In this document: positions 5,194-22,265 of the stretch, one piece after another
Numbering within the stretch: position 1 is the stretch's first letter
How the letters are laid out: each line of letters starts with the position of its first letter
DNA from: Aquisalinus flavus
GTDB lineage: Bacteria; Pseudomonadota; Alphaproteobacteria; Caulobacterales; Parvularculaceae
Direction of reading: 5' to 3'
Assembly (NCBI RefSeq): GCF_022559625.1
Contig: NZ_CP042288.1
Span: 2,862,155 to 2,926,154 of the forward strand
DNA length: 64,000 nucleotides
The notes under the pieces: generated by a model
Seen by the model: the letters and a program-made list of their open reading frames with translations, nothing else
Databases searched by the model: none
Told to the model about the DNA's origin: nothing
Translations under genes and position numbers: made by a program

Positions 5194-5942
5194 CAGTGCA
5201 CGGTCCTCTCGTCTGCAGAGCCCGTGCCTCGAGCCAGCCTGGCCTCGGCCTGTTTCAACCCGTCAGGGTCGCCGACATGCATCCACGGCCCGTCATGGAT
5301 CAGGCCGAACATGCGCCCCTGTGCCATGGCCTTGTCCCAGAAGGCGCGGGTCGAGACCTTGCGCAGGCGCTCGTCGGCGAACAGGCGCGGATGGATCACC
5401 TGCAGGCCGGTGAAAACATATTTGACCGCAGACGGATCATCGTCCGGCCAACGGGCGCGGCTTTCCCCGTCGAGGATGAAATCGCCATCGCCGTCATAAC
5501 CGCTCGCCTGGTCGAGCGGGCAGAGCAGCAGCAGCGCATCCATCTCGTCGTCTGCCCACGCATTGGCAAGGCGCGCGCAGGCTTCCTCCTCGCCGCTGTC
5601 GAGCAGGATGGCATCGGTGTTGGTGCAATAGATCGGGTCGTCACCCAGGACCGGCGCGGCCTGGATCAGCGCACCGCCTGTCTCCATCGGCGCGGCGCGC
5701 TCGTCGGAAATGATCGTCCGCGGCACGGAGCGCCTGTCGAGATGATCTTCCAGCTGCTCGGCGAGATAGTGGACATTGACGACCGCCTTCTCGACACCGG
5801 CGGCAAAGAACCGGTCGAGCACATAGTCGATCAGCGGCTTGCCTGCCACGGGAATGAGCGGCTTGGGACAAGTATCCGTCAGCGGCCGCATGCGGGTGCC
5901 GAGACCGGCGGCGAGGACCATGGCGGTATGAATCCGTGTCAT
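5193..5942 (-). CDS. Sugar-1-phosphate nucleotidyltransferase, MurU-like
   Basis: Nucleotidyltransferase of 249 residues, with the N-terminal signature VLAAGLGTRMRPLT and the PKPLIPVAGKP lysine motif of NTP-transferase enzymes. In Pseudomonas, MurU makes UDP-MurNAc from MurNAc-1-phosphate in a fosfomycin-insensitive cell-wall recycling route, and its substrate comes from the kinase AmgK. The gene directly upstream here is an AmgK-like phosphotransferase whose stop overlaps this start by 4 bases. That pairing supports the MurU assignment; mannose-1-phosphate guanylyltransferase activity is the main alternative. Family membership is clear, the substrate is inferred from context. Confidence 0.85.
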   Translation of the reverse strand: MTRIHTAMVLAAGLGTRMRPLTDTCPKPLIPVAGKPLIDYVLDRFFAAGVEKAVVNVHYLAEQLEDHLDRRSVPRTIISDERAAPMETGGALIQAAPVLGDDPIYCTNTDAILLDSGEEEACARLANAWADDEMDALLLLCPLDQASGYDGDGDFILDGESRARWPDDDPSAVKYVFTGLQVIHPRLFADERLRKVSTRAFWDKAMAQGRMFGLIHDGPWMHVGDPDGLKQAEARLARGTGSADERTVH

Positions 5943-7023
5943 GACGATAGCAGCTCCGGCATATACTCGGCGATCCAGTCCTTCAGCGGCGCTGCCTCTG
6001 GCCGGGCGAGGTCGCGGGCGAAATGGCCGCGTACACGCGGCATGAAACCTTCATAGCGCTTCTTGGCATCGCGTACGACGAGGCGGGCGAAGACGCCGAG
6101 GATCTTGGCATTGCGCTGCGCCGCCAGGATCGCGTAATCGCGCGCGAACGCGGCCCGGTCGAATCCGCCGGCCTGGTCGCGGCCATCCATATAGCGTGCG
6201 AGCATCATCTCGACGGTTGCCGCGCTGACATCGCGGCGGGCATCTTCGGCGAGCGAGACGAGGTCGTAGGCGCCATGGCCGTAAAGCCCGTCCTGGAAAT
6301 CGATCAGGCCGACGCGCTGCAGCGGGCTGTCGCCCTCCTTCTCCAGCCACAGGATATTTTCCGCATGATAGTCGCGCAGGACCAGCGTATGCGGGGCGCT
6401 CAGCGAGGACAGCATCTGCCGCCAGGCGGAGCGATAGGCTTCGATCGCCCGATCGGGGGCCTTGCCGCCGCGCAGCCACGGCCAGTACCACTCGACCAGC
6501 AAATTCGCCTCGGCCATCAGTGCGGTCTCGTCGTAATCGAGCAATGTGTAATCGACGGCGACCGGTTGCGGCAGGCGTGTTGCGTGCAGATGCACCAGCA
6601 CATCGGCGGCGCGCGCATAGAGGTCATGTTCCTCGGCGCCCTTGTCGATGGCGCGCACATAAAGATCGTCGCCGAGGTCTTCCAGCAGCGCAAATCCGTG
6701 ATCGGCATCGGCGGCGTAGATCTCCGGCGCATGCAGTCCGGAATCTCTCAATATGCCGGCGAGCGTGGTGAAGGCGTGCAGGTTCGCCCCGGCAAGGCGC
6801 GCCTGCGCATTATAGCCGAGCAGGGCGCGTTGGGACGGGGTCGCGTCCGGCGGGCAGGAGGCGCTTTCCGCGGCGGGTGGGGCATTCATCAGGATCGCCT
6901 TGCGCCCGTCGAGCGTCAGGCGATGATAGCTGCGCGTCGAGGCATCGCCGGTGATCGCCGCGCGATGGGCGGCGAGCCAGCCGGCCTCTTCGAGGAAAGC
7001 CTTTTCAAGATTGTCGCGTTCGG

Positions 7024-7027
<4 letters not shown>
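5939..7027 (-). CDS. Aminoglycoside-phosphotransferase-fold kinase, AmgK-like (anomeric MurNAc/GlcNAc kinase)
   Basis: Kinase of 362 residues of the APH/choline-kinase fold. The catalytic loop reads RDYHAENILW (Asp and Asn in the expected spacing) and is followed by the metal-binding segment IDFQD. In Pseudomonas and Caulobacter, AmgK phosphorylates the anomeric hydroxyl of MurNAc or GlcNAc; the adjacent MurU-like gene uses the product. The start is a GTG at 7025-7027 that overlaps the tsaE stop by 4 bases (GTGA). An antibiotic-resistance role is unlikely given the conserved position between tsaE and murU. Confidence 0.85.
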
Positions 7028-14709: not shown

Positions 14710-14846
14710 ACCATTGTGCGCTGGACAATGTTCTGTCTGCTAGCGGTATCTGAATAATATAACAGTACCTTGGATTTTAAGGAATTTCATTATAGGCTCC
14801 GTCTCCGCGGCCGAACTGATCGGCTGGAACGGACTTGCGAGGCTAC

Positions 14847-16157
14847 ATGCTCTATACTGCCTACGAACTTGGCCACACGGCGTTGACGCCCTTTCGCGCC
14901 GCTGCCGAGCTTAGCGCCCAATTCTGGAAATCGCCGTTCAATCCGGCCGCCAATAACTGGATCGGCCGCACCGCCGCTGCGTCCCTCGACCTGTTCGAGA
15001 GCATGACGCGCCGCTACGGCAAGCCTGAATGGGGTTTTGACTCCGTCGAGATCAATGGCGTCGATGTGCCGGTGACGATCGAGATCGTCCGCCGCAAATG
15101 CTTCGGCAATCTCATCCATTTCCGCCGCGACGAGGCTGCGCTGGCCAGGGCCCACAAGGCCGATGAAGCCCCCGTACAGCCGCGGGTGATGATCGTCGCG
15201 CCGATGTCCGGCCACTATGCGACCCTGCTGCGCGGCACCGTCCTGCAGATGATGCTGGAGCATGATGTCTACATCACCGACTGGGCCGATGCGCGCAATG
15301 TGCCGCTCGCCGCCGGCCGCTTCGACCTCAACGATTTCATCGACTATCTGATCGACTTCATGGGCGTGATCGGGCCGAAAGCGCACACCATGGCGGTCTG
15401 TCAGCCGGGTCCGCCGCTGCTCGCCGCGATCGCCCATATGAGCGCGACCGACGATCCGAACCTGCCATCGACCATGACCTTCATGGGCTCGCCCATCGAT
15501 GCGCGCAAATCGCCGACCGTCACCAACCTGCTCGCCGAGGAACAGCCCTTCGAATGGTTCGAGCAGAACATGATCCAGACCGTGCCGGCGCCCTATGCGG
15601 GCTTCCTGCGCCGCGTCTATCCGGGCTTCCTGCAGTTGATGTCGTTCATGTCGATGAATTCAGAGCGCCATGTCGACGCGCACTACGAGTATTTCCAGAA
15701 CCTGGTGAAGGGCGATGACGAGAGCGCCGACCGGCACGCGACGTTCTACGACGAATATCTGTCCGTGTGCGACATGACCGAGGAGTTCTACCTCCAGACG
15801 ATCCGCGACGTGTTCCAGGAATACCGCCTGCCGACCGGCCTGTTGATCCATCAAGGCGAGACCGTGCGGCCTGACCTGATCACCGACGTCGCGCTGATGA
15901 CGGTCGAGGGCGAGCTGGACGACATCTCCGGCATCGGCCAGACCCAGGCCGCGCATGATCTGTGTACGGGCATTCCGGCGGAGGACAAGATTGACTATGT
16001 CCAGCCGGGCGTCGGCCATTACGGCGTCTTCAACGGCTCCAAATGGCGCGACCAGATCCAGCCGAAACTGGCAGGCTTCATCAAGGCCCATTTCGACGAA
16101 GCTCAGGAGAAAGAGTTTCTCAAAGACAAGTCCGCTGCAGCCATCGCGGCGGAGTGA
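14847..16157 (+). CDS. phaZ: Intracellular poly(3-hydroxybutyrate) depolymerase PhaZ
   Basis: Enzyme of 436 residues that mobilises stored PHB granules. It matches the intracellular PhaZ1 type, in which the alpha/beta-hydrolase nucleophile is cysteine: Cys185 in AVCQPGPP. The catalytic histidine is likely in GVGHYGVFNG near the C-terminus. No signal peptide is present, as expected for a cytoplasmic granule enzyme. The ATG at 14847 begins MLYTAYELGH, typical of the family; an upstream TTG at 14835 is less likely. A 137-base AT-richer gap upstream may hold its promoter. A second PHA-related gene lies at the far right edge of the window. Confidence 0.95.
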   Translation: MLYTAYELGHTALTPFRAAAELSAQFWKSPFNPAANNWIGRTAAASLDLFESMTRRYGKPEWGFDSVEINGVDVPVTIEIVRRKCFGNLIHFRRDEAALARAHKADEAPVQPRVMIVAPMSGHYATLLRGTVLQMMLEHDVYITDWADARNVPLAAGRFDLNDFIDYLIDFMGVIGPKAHTMAVCQPGPPLLAAIAHMSATDDPNLPSTMTFMGSPIDARKSPTVTNLLAEEQPFEWFEQNMIQTVPAPYAGFLRRVYPGFLQLMSFMSMNSERHVDAHYEYFQNLVKGDDESADRHATFYDEYLSVCDMTEEFYLQTIRDVFQEYRLPTGLLIHQGETVRPDLITDVALMTVEGELDDISGIGQTQAAHDLCTGIPAEDKIDYVQPGVGHYGVFNGSKWRDQIQPKLAGFIKAHFDEAQEKEFLKDKSAAAIAAE

Positions 16158-16166
16158 TGCTTCGAT

Positions 16167-16676
16167 CTAATCCTGATTGTCCATGAGCGACAACGCCTTC
16201 GGTCTGATCGCAAAAGCTCCAAGATACGGGAAGGCAAAGCAGAGGGCGTAGAAAAACTGTCTTGCGACATTGTTCGGGGGGGCAGTTTCACGAGCGTTCA
16301 AGACGCCAGCTGCCAAAATGACCAGACCGACCTGTGTTATCAGAATAACGCCATCCAGATAGAACTGGACCAGTTTCGCTTGGGCCATGTCCAGGAAAAC
16401 CGGAGCAAGCAATGTCATCGGGATCGCACACATCAAAATGATGAATAGCGTTCGATTGAAAAAGCGTGTTGCTGAACTGGCTGAAAAGTAGTCAGTGAAC
16501 ACAAATGGATAACACCAGATCGGAACCAAAAGGGCACGCTGCAGCATCGCCATGCCTATGGATTGATTATCGAGATCGCCTAGTCTTGACGAAAAAGTGA
16601 GCAGGATAACTGCAACAAAATATGCCAGCAGGAATGCCGGATGCAGGCGTAGAAATTTACCCTCCAGTTTGTGCAT
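16167..16676 (-). CDS. Four-helix integral membrane protein of unknown function
   Basis: About 169 residues, mostly hydrophobic, with roughly four predicted membrane helices (around 12-27, 43-60, 76-95 and 105-125) and a short fifth hydrophobic patch. No motif is recognised. Base composition is visibly more AT-rich than in the flanking genes, which hints at recent acquisition. I chose the ATG at 16674-16676 because GGGGCGA precedes it; another in-frame ATG at 16697 is possible. The gene is convergent with phaZ, with only 9 bases between stops. Confidence 0.65.
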   Translation of the reverse strand: MHKLEGKFLRLHPAFLLAYFVAVILLTFSSRLGDLDNQSIGMAMLQRALLVPIWCYPFVFTDYFSASSATRFFNRTLFIILMCAIPMTLLAPVFLDMAQAKLVQFYLDGVILITQVGLVILAAGVLNARETAPPNNVARQFFYALCFAFPYLGAFAIRPKALSLMDNQD

Positions 16677-16817
16677 CAGTGATCGCCCCGGTTGCATTTC
16701 ACTGATCCAGTCTCCTCATCCTTCAGGAATTTACAACACTATCTTGCGGGCCGCCACAGGTGGCAAAGCCCTCATCACAGGTTATCTTGTTGATAGGACA
16801 ACAGGAAAGACCTGCTC

Positions 16818-17681
16818 ATGACCCGCACCATCGCCCGCCAATATCCGTCCGATCGCGACGACATCGCCGACCTTGTCACCCGCCGCCCACTGCCGGGCCA
16901 GAAGGTCTCGCAGGTCGACCCGTTCCTGTTTCTCAACCATCACGGTCCCCAGACCTACAAGCCGAACAATAACGGCCTGCCGTTCGGCCCGCACCCCCAT
17001 CGCGGCTTCGAGACGGTGACCTTCATTCTTGACGGCTCTCTCGCCCATCACGACACAGGCGGCCATGAAAGCATCATCGAGGCCGGCGGCGTGCAGTGGA
17101 TGACAGCGGGCTCCGGCCTCGTCCATGCCGAGTTGTCGCCCGCCGCCTTCAAGCGCGACGGCGGAGACATGGAAATCCTGCAGCTCTGGGTCAATCTGCC
17201 CTCGAAGCTGAAAATGACCGAGCCGCGCTATACCGGCGTGCAGGCCGATGGCATCCCCCATGTGCCGGTGGCCGATGGCGATGGCACCCTCCATCTCGTC
17301 TCCGGCGATTTCGATGGTCAGGCGGGACCCGTCGACTCGCTGACCGGCGTGTTCATGTCATGGGTCGATCTGAAGGACGGCGCGAGCGTCACCCTGCCGG
17401 CCCCCGCGGCGCGCAACATCTTCTTCTACATGGTCTCCGGCAATGCCGAGGTCGCGGGCACCGAGATCAAGGAATGGTATCTCGTCGAGTTCAACGGCGA
17501 TGGTGACCAGGTGACGCTGACTGCGAAGAGCGATTGCCGCTTTCTGTTCGGCCATGCCGACAAGATCGGCGAGCCGGTCGTCGCCCACGGGCCCTTCGTG
17601 ATGAACACCCATCAGGAGATCAACGAGGCGATCCGCGACTATCAGGCCGGCAAGTTCGACCGCCAGCCGCTGAACCTCTAG
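16818..17681 (+). CDS. Pirin family bicupin protein
   Basis: Pirin of 287 residues. The metal-binding cupin motif is in the segment FGPHPHRGFETVT with the later HHD and E-x-H residues; the second cupin starts around residue 180. Bacterial pirins include quercetinases and metabolic modulators, so the reaction cannot be fixed from sequence. The start is supported by AGGAAAG 10-15 bases upstream. The acetyltransferase gene begins 9 bases after the stop, so the two are probably cotranscribed. Confidence 0.92.
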   Translation: MTRTIARQYPSDRDDIADLVTRRPLPGQKVSQVDPFLFLNHHGPQTYKPNNNGLPFGPHPHRGFETVTFILDGSLAHHDTGGHESIIEAGGVQWMTAGSGLVHAELSPAAFKRDGGDMEILQLWVNLPSKLKMTEPRYTGVQADGIPHVPVADGDGTLHLVSGDFDGQAGPVDSLTGVFMSWVDLKDGASVTLPAPAARNIFFYMVSGNAEVAGTEIKEWYLVEFNGDGDQVTLTAKSDCRFLFGHADKIGEPVVAHGPFVMNTHQEINEAIRDYQAGKFDRQPLNL

Positions 17682-17690
17682 GCCTCGCCC

Positions 17691-18155
17691 ATGACCGCGC
17701 CCTTCGACATCGCCCGCCTGCGTGACACCGATATCCCGGCTTTCCGGGAACTGCTCGGCGTTTTCGGCACGGCGTTCGAGGAACCGGACACCTATGAAGG
17801 CGCCCAGCCAGACGATGCCTATCTGACCCGGCTGCTGGCTTCCGAAACCTTCTTCGCCCTTGCTGCAACGCAGGGCGACCGCATCATTGGCGGGCTCGCC
17901 GCCTATGAGCTGCAGAAATTCGAACAGGCCCGCAGCGAGATCTATATCTATGATCTCGCCGTAGATGAAGCCCATCGCCGCCAGGGCGTGGCGACGGCGC
18001 TGATCGGGCGGCTGCAGGAGATCGCCGCGGCGCGCGGGGCCTGGGTGATCTTCGTCCAGGCCGACCATGGCGACGACCCCGCCATCGCGCTCTATGAAAG
18101 CCTCGGTGCGCGTGAGGAAGTCCTGCATTTCGACATCGAGCCGCGCGCTGAATAG
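17691..18155 (+). CDS. GNAT acetyltransferase resembling AAC(3)-I aminoglycoside 3-N-acetyltransferases
   Basis: GNAT-fold protein of 154 residues with unusually close resemblance, by eye, to the gentamicin-modifying AAC(3)-I family. The diagnostic stretches are KFEQARSEIYIYDLAV (76-91), then HRRQGVATAL for acetyl-CoA binding (95-104), VQADHGDDPAIALYESLG (122-139) and the C-terminal REEVLHFDI. Only the aminoglycoside enzymes are known to me to share all four. Its native setting next to pirin and polA, with no integron or transposon signs and GC content like its neighbours, suggests an intrinsic chromosomal gene. Actual aminoglycoside activity is inferred, not shown. Confidence 0.88.
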   Translation: MTAPFDIARLRDTDIPAFRELLGVFGTAFEEPDTYEGAQPDDAYLTRLLASETFFALAATQGDRIIGGLAAYELQKFEQARSEIYIYDLAVDEAHRRQGVATALIGRLQEIAAARGAWVIFVQADHGDDPAIALYESLGAREEVLHFDIEPRAE

Positions 18156-18239
18156 ACCCGGGGCTGGTAGAGGCGCCACCTTGTTGCGACTTGGGGCAGG
18201 GCCGTCTATGTCTGTCTGACCAGAGGAAACAGACCGCCC

Positions 18240-21074
18240 ATGTCCGGAAAAACACCGCAAAAAGCAGCCCTCAAGAAGGGCGACCGTCTCTATCTGATCG
18301 ACGGGTCCGCTTATATCTTTCGCGCCTATCACGCCCTGCCGCCGCTGACGCGCAAGTCGGATGGCGCGCCGGTCGGCGCCGTGTCCGGCTTCTGCAACAT
18401 GCTGTGGAAGCTGCTCGCCGATGTGAATGACGACGCGGTAAAGGAAATGGGTACGCCGACCCATTTCGCGGTCATCTTCGACCATTCCTCCGAGACCTTC
18501 CGCAACGAGATGTACACGGAGTACAAGGCCAATCGCGACGAGCCGCCCGATGACCTGAAGCCGCAATTCGCCATGATCCGCGACGCCGTGCGTGCCTTCG
18601 GCCTGCCCTGTATCGAGATGCAGGGCTATGAGGCCGATGACCTGATCTGCACCTATGCGCGCCAGGCCGAACAGGTCGAGGCGGAGACAATCATCATCTC
18701 CTCCGACAAGGATCTGATGCAGCTGATCGGTGAGCATACGATCATGTATGATACGATGAAATCGCGCCGCATCGGCGTCGACGAGGTAATCGAGAAATTC
18801 GGCGTCGGCCCCGACAAGATGATCGACATGCAGGCGCTGATCGGCGATTCCGTCGACAATGTACCCGGCGTGCCCGGCATCGGGCCGAAGACGGCGGCAC
18901 AGCTGCTGGAGGAATTCGGCACGCTGGAAAATCTTCTGGAGAACGCCGGAACCATCAAGCAGAACAAGCGCCGCGAGAGCCTGATCGAGCATGCCGACAA
19001 TGCGCGGCTGTCGAAGAAGCTCGTCACGCTGGAATGCAATGTGCCGATCGAGGCCACGATAGACGAGTTCGTCGTCACGCCCTTCGACCATGCCCGGCTG
19101 ATCGGATATCTCGAGGAGATGGAATTCACGACACTGACGAAACGGGTCCGGGCCAAGGCCGATCAGGCCGGCGCTGATGTGCCTGAACCGTCCGCCCCCG
19201 TTGCGGCGCCTGCGCCCGATGCAAAACCCGTCGACCGGAGCGCCTATGAGACGGTTTTCTCGGCGGAGCGCCTGCGCGACTGGATGGAACGGGCCCGCGC
19301 GCGCGGCCATCTCGCCGTCGATACCGAAACGACCGGGCTCGACTGCATGACGGCAAGGCTTGTCGGCGTGTGCCTGTCGACCGGCCCGGGTGAGGCCTGT
19401 TACGTGCCGCTCGGCCATGGCGGTGACGGGCTGGCTTTCGATGACGAGGATGTCGGCAAACAGATCAAGCTGAACGAGGCGCTGGCGATTCTCAAGCCGG
19501 TGCTGGAGGATGACAGCGTACTGAAGATCGGCCAGAACTTCAAATATGACATGCTGCTGCTGTCGCGCTATGGCATCGACGTCGCGCCGATCGACGACAC
19601 GATGCTGATCTCCTACGCCCTCGATTGCGGTCTCAACGGCCATGGCATGGACGAGCTGGGTGACCGGCATCTCGGTCACACCTGCATCAAGTTCACCGAC
19701 ATTGCCGGCACCGGCAAGAAGCAGAAGACCTTCAACGAGCTGGTCATCCGGGAAGCCGCGCCCTATGCCGCGGAAGATGCGGACGTCACCTTCCGCCTGT
19801 GGCAGGCGCTGAAGCCGCGTCTCGTCAGGGAGCGGATGACCACGCTCTACGAGACGCTGGAACGTCCCATGCCCGCGATCATTTCTGCGATGGAACGCGA
19901 AGGCGTGAAGGTCGATTGCGACGTGCTCTCGCGCCTGTCGTCGGAATTCAACCAGCGCATGGGCGCCCACGAGGCGGCGGCGCGCGAGCTGGCAGGCGAC
20001 GACTTCAATCTCGGCAGCCCGAAACAGATTTCCGATATCCTGTTCGGCCAGATGGGCCTGCCCGGCGGCAAGAAGACCAAGACCGGCGCGTGGTCGACCA
20101 GCGCCGACGTGCTCGATGACCTCGCCGCACAGGGCTATGAGATCGCGCGGGAGATCGTCAGCTGGCGCCAGCTGTCAAAGCTCGTCGGCACCTATACCGA
20201 TGCGCTGCAAAAGGATCTCAACGAGGAAACCGGCCGGGTCCATACCAGCTATTCGCTGGCGTCGACCACGACCGGACGCCTGTCATCGAACGACCCGAAT
20301 CTGCAGAATATCCCGATACGGACGGAGGACGGGCGCAAGATCCGCACCGCCTTCATCGCCGAGGAGGGCCATGTCCTCGTCTCTGCCGACTATAGCCAGA
20401 TCGAGCTGCGTTTGCTGGCCCATATCGCCGACATCACGTCCCTGAAGCAGGCCTTCTCCGATGGCATCGATATCCATGCGATGACCGCATCGGAAATGTT
20501 CGGCGTGCCGATCGAGGGCATGGATCCGATGGTCCGGCGCAAGGCCAAGGCGATCAATTTCGGCATCATCTACGGCATTTCGGCCTTCGGGCTCGCCAAC
20601 CAGCTCGGCATCCCGCGCGGCGAGGCGAAGGACTATATCGACGCCTATTTCGAGAAGTTCCCCGGTATCCGTCAGTATATGGACGACACGAAGAAGACGG
20701 CCATGGCCCATGGCTATGTCGAGACCGTGTTCGGGAGCAAGACCCATACGCCGAACATCAAGGCGAAGATACCGGCCCAGCGCGCCTATGCCGAACGCCA
20801 GGCGATCAACGCGCCGATCCAGGGCTCTGCCGCTGACATCATCCGCCGCGCCATGATCCGCATGCCGGCGGCACTGGAACAGTCAGGGCTATCGGCGAGA
20901 ATGCTGCTGCAGGTGCATGACGAGCTGATCTTCGAATGCCCGGCAGGCGAGGCCGATGACACGCGGGCACTGGTCAAGCGGGTGATGGAAACCGCCTGCG
21001 ACCCTGTGCTGAAAATCAGCGTACCGCTGGTGGTCGAAACCGGCACCGGGCTAAACTGGGACGAAGCGCATTAG
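18240..21074 (+). CDS. polA: DNA polymerase I
   Basis: Full-length Pol I of 944 residues. An N-terminal 5'-3' flap exonuclease covers about 1-300 (LIDGSAYIFRAYHA start, EADDLICTYA). A 3'-5' proofreading domain follows with its metal motif intact (VDTETTGLD, about residue 360). The palm-fingers-thumb polymerase is C-terminal, with SADYSQIELR, the RRKAKAINFGIIYG O-helix and the catalytic QVHDELIFE. It fills gaps during excision repair and removes Okazaki primers. The ATG is preceded by AGAGGAAA. It is convergent with the following serine hydrolase gene, 6 bases apart. Confidence 0.98.
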   Translation: MSGKTPQKAALKKGDRLYLIDGSAYIFRAYHALPPLTRKSDGAPVGAVSGFCNMLWKLLADVNDDAVKEMGTPTHFAVIFDHSSETFRNEMYTEYKANRDEPPDDLKPQFAMIRDAVRAFGLPCIEMQGYEADDLICTYARQAEQVEAETIIISSDKDLMQLIGEHTIMYDTMKSRRIGVDEVIEKFGVGPDKMIDMQALIGDSVDNVPGVPGIGPKTAAQLLEEFGTLENLLENAGTIKQNKRRESLIEHADNARLSKKLVTLECNVPIEATIDEFVVTPFDHARLIGYLEEMEFTTLTKRVRAKADQAGADVPEPSAPVAAPAPDAKPVDRSAYETVFSAERLRDWMERARARGHLAVDTETTGLDCMTARLVGVCLSTGPGEACYVPLGHGGDGLAFDDEDVGKQIKLNEALAILKPVLEDDSVLKIGQNFKYDMLLLSRYGIDVAPIDDTMLISYALDCGLNGHGMDELGDRHLGHTCIKFTDIAGTGKKQKTFNELVIREAAPYAAEDADVTFRLWQALKPRLVRERMTTLYETLERPMPAIISAMEREGVKVDCDVLSRLSSEFNQRMGAHEAAARELAGDDFNLGSPKQISDILFGQMGLPGGKKTKTGAWSTSADVLDDLAAQGYEIAREIVSWRQLSKLVGTYTDALQKDLNEETGRVHTSYSLASTTTGRLSSNDPNLQNIPIRTEDGRKIRTAFIAEEGHVLVSADYSQIELRLLAHIADITSLKQAFSDGIDIHAMTASEMFGVPIEGMDPMVRRKAKAINFGIIYGISAFGLANQLGIPRGEAKDYIDAYFEKFPGIRQYMDDTKKTAMAHGYVETVFGSKTHTPNIKAKIPAQRAYAERQAINAPIQGSAADIIRRAMIRMPAALEQSGLSARMLLQVHDELIFECPAGEADDTRALVKRVMETACDPVLKISVPLVVETGTGLNWDEAH

Positions 21075-21080
21075 GCAGGC

Positions 21081-22265
21081 CTATTGCGCCGGCCTTGCGG
21101 TTTCCTCACTGAGCAGGATACGGATTGCGTCGTTGACGAGGCCACGCCTGGTGTAGATCTTTTCCAGATCCGGGCCGCCGACATTGCTGACCAGGTTGAA
21201 GGTGTACCCGTCCTGCAATCGCACGGCATTGGCGTTGTGGATCGCGCCGGTCTGCCCCTGTCGCTCGGCGGTCATCAGCCACCTGCCTGCACCGGTTGAA
21301 TAGGGAAACACCCATTGTCCGGCTCCGGTATATCCAATGGCACCATCGCCACGCAGCCATTCATCGCGGATCGAATCGAACAGCGGCGCCTCGCTGATCG
21401 CAGTGTTCCAGACAGCCATGTCGCGCGGCGTCGACAGCCCCCCTGCCGCGGCGGTGAGATATCGCGGATACTCCTCCGCCACATAGTCGCCGCCAATGCG
21501 CACATAGCCGGCCATCATCCCGGCCGGGCGGGGGGCTGGCGGCATCATGCCGGAGGCCGTCATGCCAAGCGGCTCCAGCAATTCTGTCTGCAGCAGCTCC
21601 GCGAATGGCCTCGACGTGACCTGTTCGATCACCGTCTGCAGAACGATCGTATCCGTGCGCCGATAGATGAATTCTATGCCGGGATCGCCCCGTTGAGGCA
21701 GGGTACAGATAATTTCAGTCAGCGAATCGACGGGGCCGAGCAGGGCAGCGCCATCGCCGAGGGTGCGATAGAATTCCTCGTCCCTGGCGAGGCCGCTCCT
21801 ATGCGCCATCAACTGGCGCAGGGTCGCGCTGCCCTGGGGCAGGGAGCAAGCTTCGCCCAGATACTGGTTCGCCGAATTGTCGAGCTCCAGAACGCCTTTC
21901 TCTGCCAGCAGGAAGGCAACGGCGCTGGTCCATTGCTTGGTAACCGAGGCAATCGGGAACGGCACGTCCACGTCGTGCTCAAGGCCTGCCTCGATATCGG
22001 CAAAGCCATAGCCTTTCGCAAACATCACCTCGCCATGATGAGTGATGATGACATGGCCCATGAAGCCGTCCTCTTCCATGGCGCGGGTGAAGATCGCATC
22101 CAGCTTCGCGGCCTTGGTTGCGCCTTGCGGTGCAGCGGCATTGCGTTCAGCTTGTGCGGCGACGATCCGGCCCTCATCGGGGATTTTGTCCTCCATGCAG
22201 GCAGTGAGCCAAAGGCCAAGGGCGGCGATGACGGCTATGGCTGGCAGGCCCTGACGCAAAAACAT
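21081..22265 (-). CDS. Serine hydrolase lipoprotein, beta-lactamase/esterase (S12) fold
   Basis: 394 residues. The lipobox ends at Cys23 (WLTAC), so it is a lipoprotein facing the periplasm. The active-site S-x-x-K is Ser107-Lys110 in IASVTKQWTS. The usual second tyrosine motif Y-x-N appears as YRR (near residue 202), and the third K/H-x-G motif is at best HNA near residue 340; both deviations argue against an efficient beta-lactamase. A D-aminopeptidase, esterase or weakly active family member is more likely. It is a single gene, convergent with polA. Confidence 0.85.
   Translation of the reverse strand: MFLRQGLPAIAVIAALGLWLTACMEDKIPDEGRIVAAQAERNAAAPQGATKAAKLDAIFTRAMEEDGFMGHVIITHHGEVMFAKGYGFADIEAGLEHDVDVPFPIASVTKQWTSAVAFLLAEKGVLELDNSANQYLGEACSLPQGSATLRQLMAHRSGLARDEEFYRTLGDGAALLGPVDSLTEIICTLPQRGDPGIEFIYRRTDTIVLQTVIEQVTSRPFAELLQTELLEPLGMTASGMMPPAPRPAGMMAGYVRIGGDYVAEEYPRYLTAAAGGLSTPRDMAVWNTAISEAPLFDSIRDEWLRGDGAIGYTGAGQWVFPYSTGAGRWLMTAERQGQTGAIHNANAVRLQDGYTFNLVSNVGGPDLEKIYTRRGLVNDAIRILLSEETARPAQ

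Follow-up and report, generated by a model that had tools for sequence, protein, structure and literature searches.

A chromosomal gene for a predicted AAC(3)-I type aminoglycoside 3-N-acetyltransferase, probably acquired between pirin and polA in Aquisalinus flavus

The closest described relatives of the gene analyzed here include AAC(3)-Ia and AAC(3)-Ib (aacC1), which are encoded by plasmid integron cassette genes and represented by the structures 9mgs, 6bvc, 4yfj and 1bo4. For AAC(3)-Ia, the structure, the swapped dimer and the kinetics have been reported: the central ring of sisomicin is bound as a boat, and the partner subunit's C-terminal tail completes the acidic pocket (PMC12378234). 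In the same study, AAC(3)-Ia proved to be a weak enzyme with a kcat/KM of 0.05–0.06 per uM per s, and the MIC in the E. coli set-up was no higher than with the empty vector. AAC(3)-XIa (9mgt) is also a GNAT that forms a swapped dimer and binds the 2-DOS ring in boat form (PMC12378234), but it shares only 23% identity with the protein described below, at an rmsd of 2.4. Outside the clinical setting, 360 new AAC(3)-I families have been reported next to 8 known ones in about one million genomes (PMC10400643), and GNAT-type meta-AACs from soil reportedly show activity levels comparable to clinical ones (PMC8956665). Given these family counts and activities, an environmental AAC(3)-I pool is already established, and the gene described here is an ordinary further member of this large family. 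What is new is a single chromosomal AAC(3)-I gene with a well-defined insertion site and a clean comparison with the empty site in a sister species.

The gene lies within a 64,000-nt stretch of the A. flavus chromosome (hereafter the window), in which a complete ORF running from ATG to TAG at 17691–18155 on the plus strand encodes a protein of 154 amino acids. Comparison with NF033083 (AAC_3_I), a curated NCBIfam equivalog model with a cut-off of 200 bits, gave a match of 230.8 bits (E 6.2e-69). Since the runner-up NCBIfam family reached 35.7 bits, i.e. 195 bits less, this match is far above chance. According to Pfam, the protein belongs to the ordinary Acetyltransf_1 class of GNATs; its best matches among PDB sequences are AAC(3)-Ib (4yfj, E 7.5e-51) and 5hmn (E 1.2e-50), as well as the AAC(3)-Ia entries 9mgs and 6bvc and the entry 1bo4. 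The blocks KFEQARSEIYIYDLAV, HRR.GVATALI, QAD.GDDPA.ALY and RE.V.HFDI can be aligned with AAC(3)-Ib (4yfj) without any gap, confirming the proposal of an earlier note on this DNA that the protein has diagnostic blocks in common with gentamicin 3-N-acetyltransferases. In a phylogenetic tree with four further GNATs from this genome as outgroup, whose branches are very long, the protein falls within the AAC(3)-I clade and is split from the outgroup with a support of 95/94. In the phylogeny with GNAT outgroups that had been suggested as a check, it is thus found on the AAC(3)-I side, and the refuting placement among non-aminoglycoside GNATs did not occur.

Among 57 columns that do not vary across nine known AAC(3)-I proteins, 55 are kept, including the catalytic-type Tyr135. 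The two changed columns are E31, where all nine have D, and F55, where all nine have I; the same residues occur in 48/99 and 11/99 environmental relatives, respectively. In our alignment A1, in which all 38 proteins match NF033083, Tyr135, Gln123, Asp125, Asp128, Glu142, His146 and Asp148 are all invariant. Tyr135 aligns with the tyrosine that was mutated to alanine in PDB 5u08 (meta-AAC0020), in line with the tyrosine/glutamate pair that is reported to be catalytic in GNATs (PMC8956665). The AlphaFold monomer model has a mean pLDDT of 92.8, and a Foldseek search with it ranked only AAC(3)-I proteins at the top; superposition on 9mgs, the crystal structure of AAC(3)-Ia with sisomicin and CoA, resulted in an rmsd of 1.0 Å and a TM score of 0.94 at 57% identity. 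The AAC(3)-I-like identity put forward in the earlier note is therefore well founded on the NF033083 score, the tree and the Foldseek hits, and the protein is very probably an acetyl-CoA-using aminoglycoside 3-N-acetyltransferase of the AAC(3)-I type.

By analogy with AAC(3)-Ia, we expect a dimer with swapped C-termini, in which the RRQGVA loop would contact acetyl-CoA and an acidic pocket would hold a 4,6-disubstituted 2-deoxystreptamine drug, presumably gentamicin or sisomicin. Sisomicin should be bound as in AAC(3)-Ia, with a boat-shaped ring and a swapped tail. The 3-amino group would then be acetylated with Tyr135 as the probable general acid, and the acetylated drug would bind the ribosome less well. 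As AAC(3)-Ia is weak and brought no gain in MIC, an active enzyme of this kind might nevertheless confer little resistance on its host, and an unchanged MIC alone would be compatible with enzyme activity (PMC12378234).

Compared with the described systems, the protein agrees with AAC(3)-Ia and AAC(3)-Ib in length, fold and invariant residues (56–63% identity; rmsd of 1.0–1.4 between the model and 9mgs, 6bvc and 4yfj_A), whereas its gene is chromosomal, lacks attC core sites and occupies the gap between pirin and polA. HMB0005 (5hmn) is likewise an environmental AAC(3)-I (~59% identity, rmsd 1.0), but was obtained from soil metagenome DNA. Among plasmid-borne genes, identity is highest to the aac(3)-Ih-like gene of Paracoccus (66%), followed by -Ib (63%), -Ic (61%), -Ia and -If (both 59%) and -Id (53%). 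The AAC(3)-Ih-like protein of Paracoccus pantotrophus pPAN3 is also alphaproteobacterial and has close copies in other Paracoccus genomes; however, it is encoded on a large plasmid, is confined to a tight Paracoccus clade and is not the supported sister of our protein. More distant are meta-AAC0020 (5f46) and a Myroides plasmid homologue, which share the GNAT fold, the catalytic-type Tyr and the QAD..D motif, but have only ~35% identity and carry Q, Y, K and L in place of the AAC(3)-I residues K76, E78, R81 and E83. We take meta-AAC0020 to be a 6'-acetyltransferase, i.e. not of 3 regiospecificity. That regiospecificity can differ among related GNATs counts against our reading of the present protein. 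As a separate observation, the Myroides odoratimimus plasmid p63039 encodes at 1480–1944 a close relative of meta-AAC0020 (204 bits against 5f46), which adjoins blaOXA and blaMYO-1 and is annotated merely as GNAT; it is possibly a mobile aminoglycoside acetyltransferase overlooked by annotation.

The genomic position agrees with the earlier note, which had placed the gene between pirin and polA. Upstream lies the pirin gene (PF02678 and PF05726; 16818–17681, plus strand), and downstream the gene for DNA polymerase I, polA (PF00476, PF02739, PF01367 and PF01612; 18240–21074, plus strand), preceded by a leader of 65 nt (18175–18239, plus strand). In the genome of the sister species (G001), whose pirin is 92% identical at the amino acid and 89% at the DNA level, only 84 nt separate the pirin stop from the polA start. 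They comprise 20 unalignable nt followed by a leader with 86% identity to the one in the window, so that a segment of 493 nt carrying the gene (17682–18174) stands opposite 20 nt, with the leader forming the right edge of the insert. Further upstream, the window contains a gene for a 176-aa protein without Pfam match (16167–16697, minus strand) and a phaZ-like gene of the PHB depolymerase C-terminal family (14835–16157, plus strand); the sister genome shows the order phaZ-like gene (93%), homologue of the 176-aa protein (42% identical), pirin and polA. A search for pirin in the remaining four congeners gave no match at E ≤ 1e-40, and in three congeners polA comes right after the phaZ-like gene, with a spacer of 55–60 nt and without pirin or aac. 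From this pattern of presence and absence, it appears that aac was the last to enter the gap between phaZ and polA, after pirin and the gene for the 176-aa protein. The content of this gap (14835–21074 in the window) varies across the genus, and it may be an uptake spot for accessory genes.

No mobile element could be recognized at the insert. The attC core motif (GTTRRRY or RYYYAAC) is missing within 17601–18300 and the nearest tyrosine recombinase is encoded ~0.38 Mb away, on which grounds we rejected an origin as integron gene cassette. No tRNA gene was found in the 64,000-nt window. We also rejected a target-site duplication, as the longest repeat in common is 7 nt and not located at both edges, and a foreign composition, as GC content (0.647 for the gene versus 0.627 for the window) and codon usage are host-like. 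The codon score exceeds that of 30/45 window genes, and such typical usage points to a settled gene. The distance from the pirin stop codon to the aac start codon is 9 nt, which makes co-transcription likely; aac is probably read from the pirin transcript. A search for a dedicated sigma-70-like promoter returned none, which counts against the preferred reading. The earlier statement that the gene carries no mobile-element marks was thus correct as far as attC motifs and recombinases are concerned; however, the gene is accessory all the same, as it is absent from all congeners and its site is empty in the sister genome. These results suggest that AAC(3)-I genes can settle singly in housekeeping neighbourhoods without a recognizable mobile element, and hence missing mobile marks are no proof of an ancestral gene.

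Most likely, the gene was gained as a single-gene segment once its lineage had separated from the sister species. Taken as a whole, we consider it highly probable that the locus represents an accessory gene acquired between pirin and polA and encoding a 3-N-acetyltransferase of the AAC(3)-I type. The opposite direction, in which the gene was ancestral to the genus and lost in the sister species and the others, could draw on an AU test in which monophyly of the AAC(3)-I proteins from the taxonomic family was not rejected (p 0.59). We regard it as unlikely, however, since the gene is present in just 1/6 genomes of the genus and thus absent in 5/5 congeners, the spacer between phaZ and polA is very short in three of them, and elsewhere in the taxonomic family the gene is not found beside pirin or polA. 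Overall, it occurs in 7/62 genomes of the family (one of the seven being a contig-edge fragment) and in 15/385 genomes of the class Alphaproteobacteria; the class was judged from one of its proteins, which is identical to a protein of a named alphaproteobacterial MAG.

Another explanation could be that the main substrate is a different amine, such as a polyamine, an amino sugar or an antibiotic of peptide or non-2-DOS type, and that aminoglycoside acetylation is incidental. The GNAT superfamily is promiscuous, and the host is not known to produce or encounter aminoglycosides. The weakness of AAC(3)-Ia on gentamicin points in the same direction (PMC12378234). Against this stand the 55/57 positions held in common with known AAC(3)-I proteins and the absence from all congeners, which argues against a core metabolic role. 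Moreover, a conserved neighbour is missing: neither pirin nor polA adjoins any of the other AAC(3)-I loci fetched, and we accordingly rejected a conserved operon partner. Altogether, a different main substrate seems improbable to us, and the distinct native acetylation role that the earlier note had offered as an option is disfavoured by the patchy presence and the family-wide conservation. A related idea, to which we assign little probability, is that the natural substrate is not a clinical aminoglycoside but some other compound of the habitat, and that this role is what maintains the AAC(3)-I proteins so widespread in the environment; clinical resistance would then be an exaptation. For the preferred reading as an aminoglycoside 3-N-acetyltransferase, the gene would presumably be of benefit to its host.

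A scan of species-level genomes revealed at least 469 encoded relatives, the best 80 of which are ~59–73% identical over the matched stretch and belong to Alpha-, Beta- and Gammaproteobacteria, Cyanobacteria, Acidobacteriota, Verrucomicrobiota and others. The clinical alleles appear in several places of the tree, with Ia/Ib/If grouping with Ic, Id with an Ie-like sequence and Ih inside Paracoccus; this scattering among environmental sequences agrees with an environmental pool that was drawn on repeatedly. Placement of the window protein within AAC(3)-I is loose, as ~150 columns are too few and the AU tests rejected neither the grouping by taxonomic family nor a group with Ia/Ib/Ic (p 0.67). 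Although this latter result would allow the window gene to be directly ancestral or closely sister to the clinical alleles on integrons, such a descent is unsupported and highly improbable, considering the identity of only 59–63% to Ia/Ib/Ic/If, the chromosomal relatives from Hydrogenophaga, Saccharophagus and others that are nearer to the clinical alleles in the tree (98/89) and the lack of an attC core motif. Consequently, of the suggestion in the earlier note that the gene belongs to the environmental pool from which the clinical genes arose, membership in the pool stands, but a role as their source in any specific sense is not supported, the nearest alleles being 53–66% identical.

Two further genes were noticed elsewhere in the window. 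The one at 21084–22265 on the minus strand encodes a serine hydrolase of 394 aa from the Beta-lactamase family (PF00144), with no evidence of drug resistance. At 5939–7027, also on the minus strand, lies a gene for a 362-aa kinase with APH fold (PF01636, 76 bits), which is presumably more similar to AmgK-type sugar kinases than to an aminoglycoside kinase.
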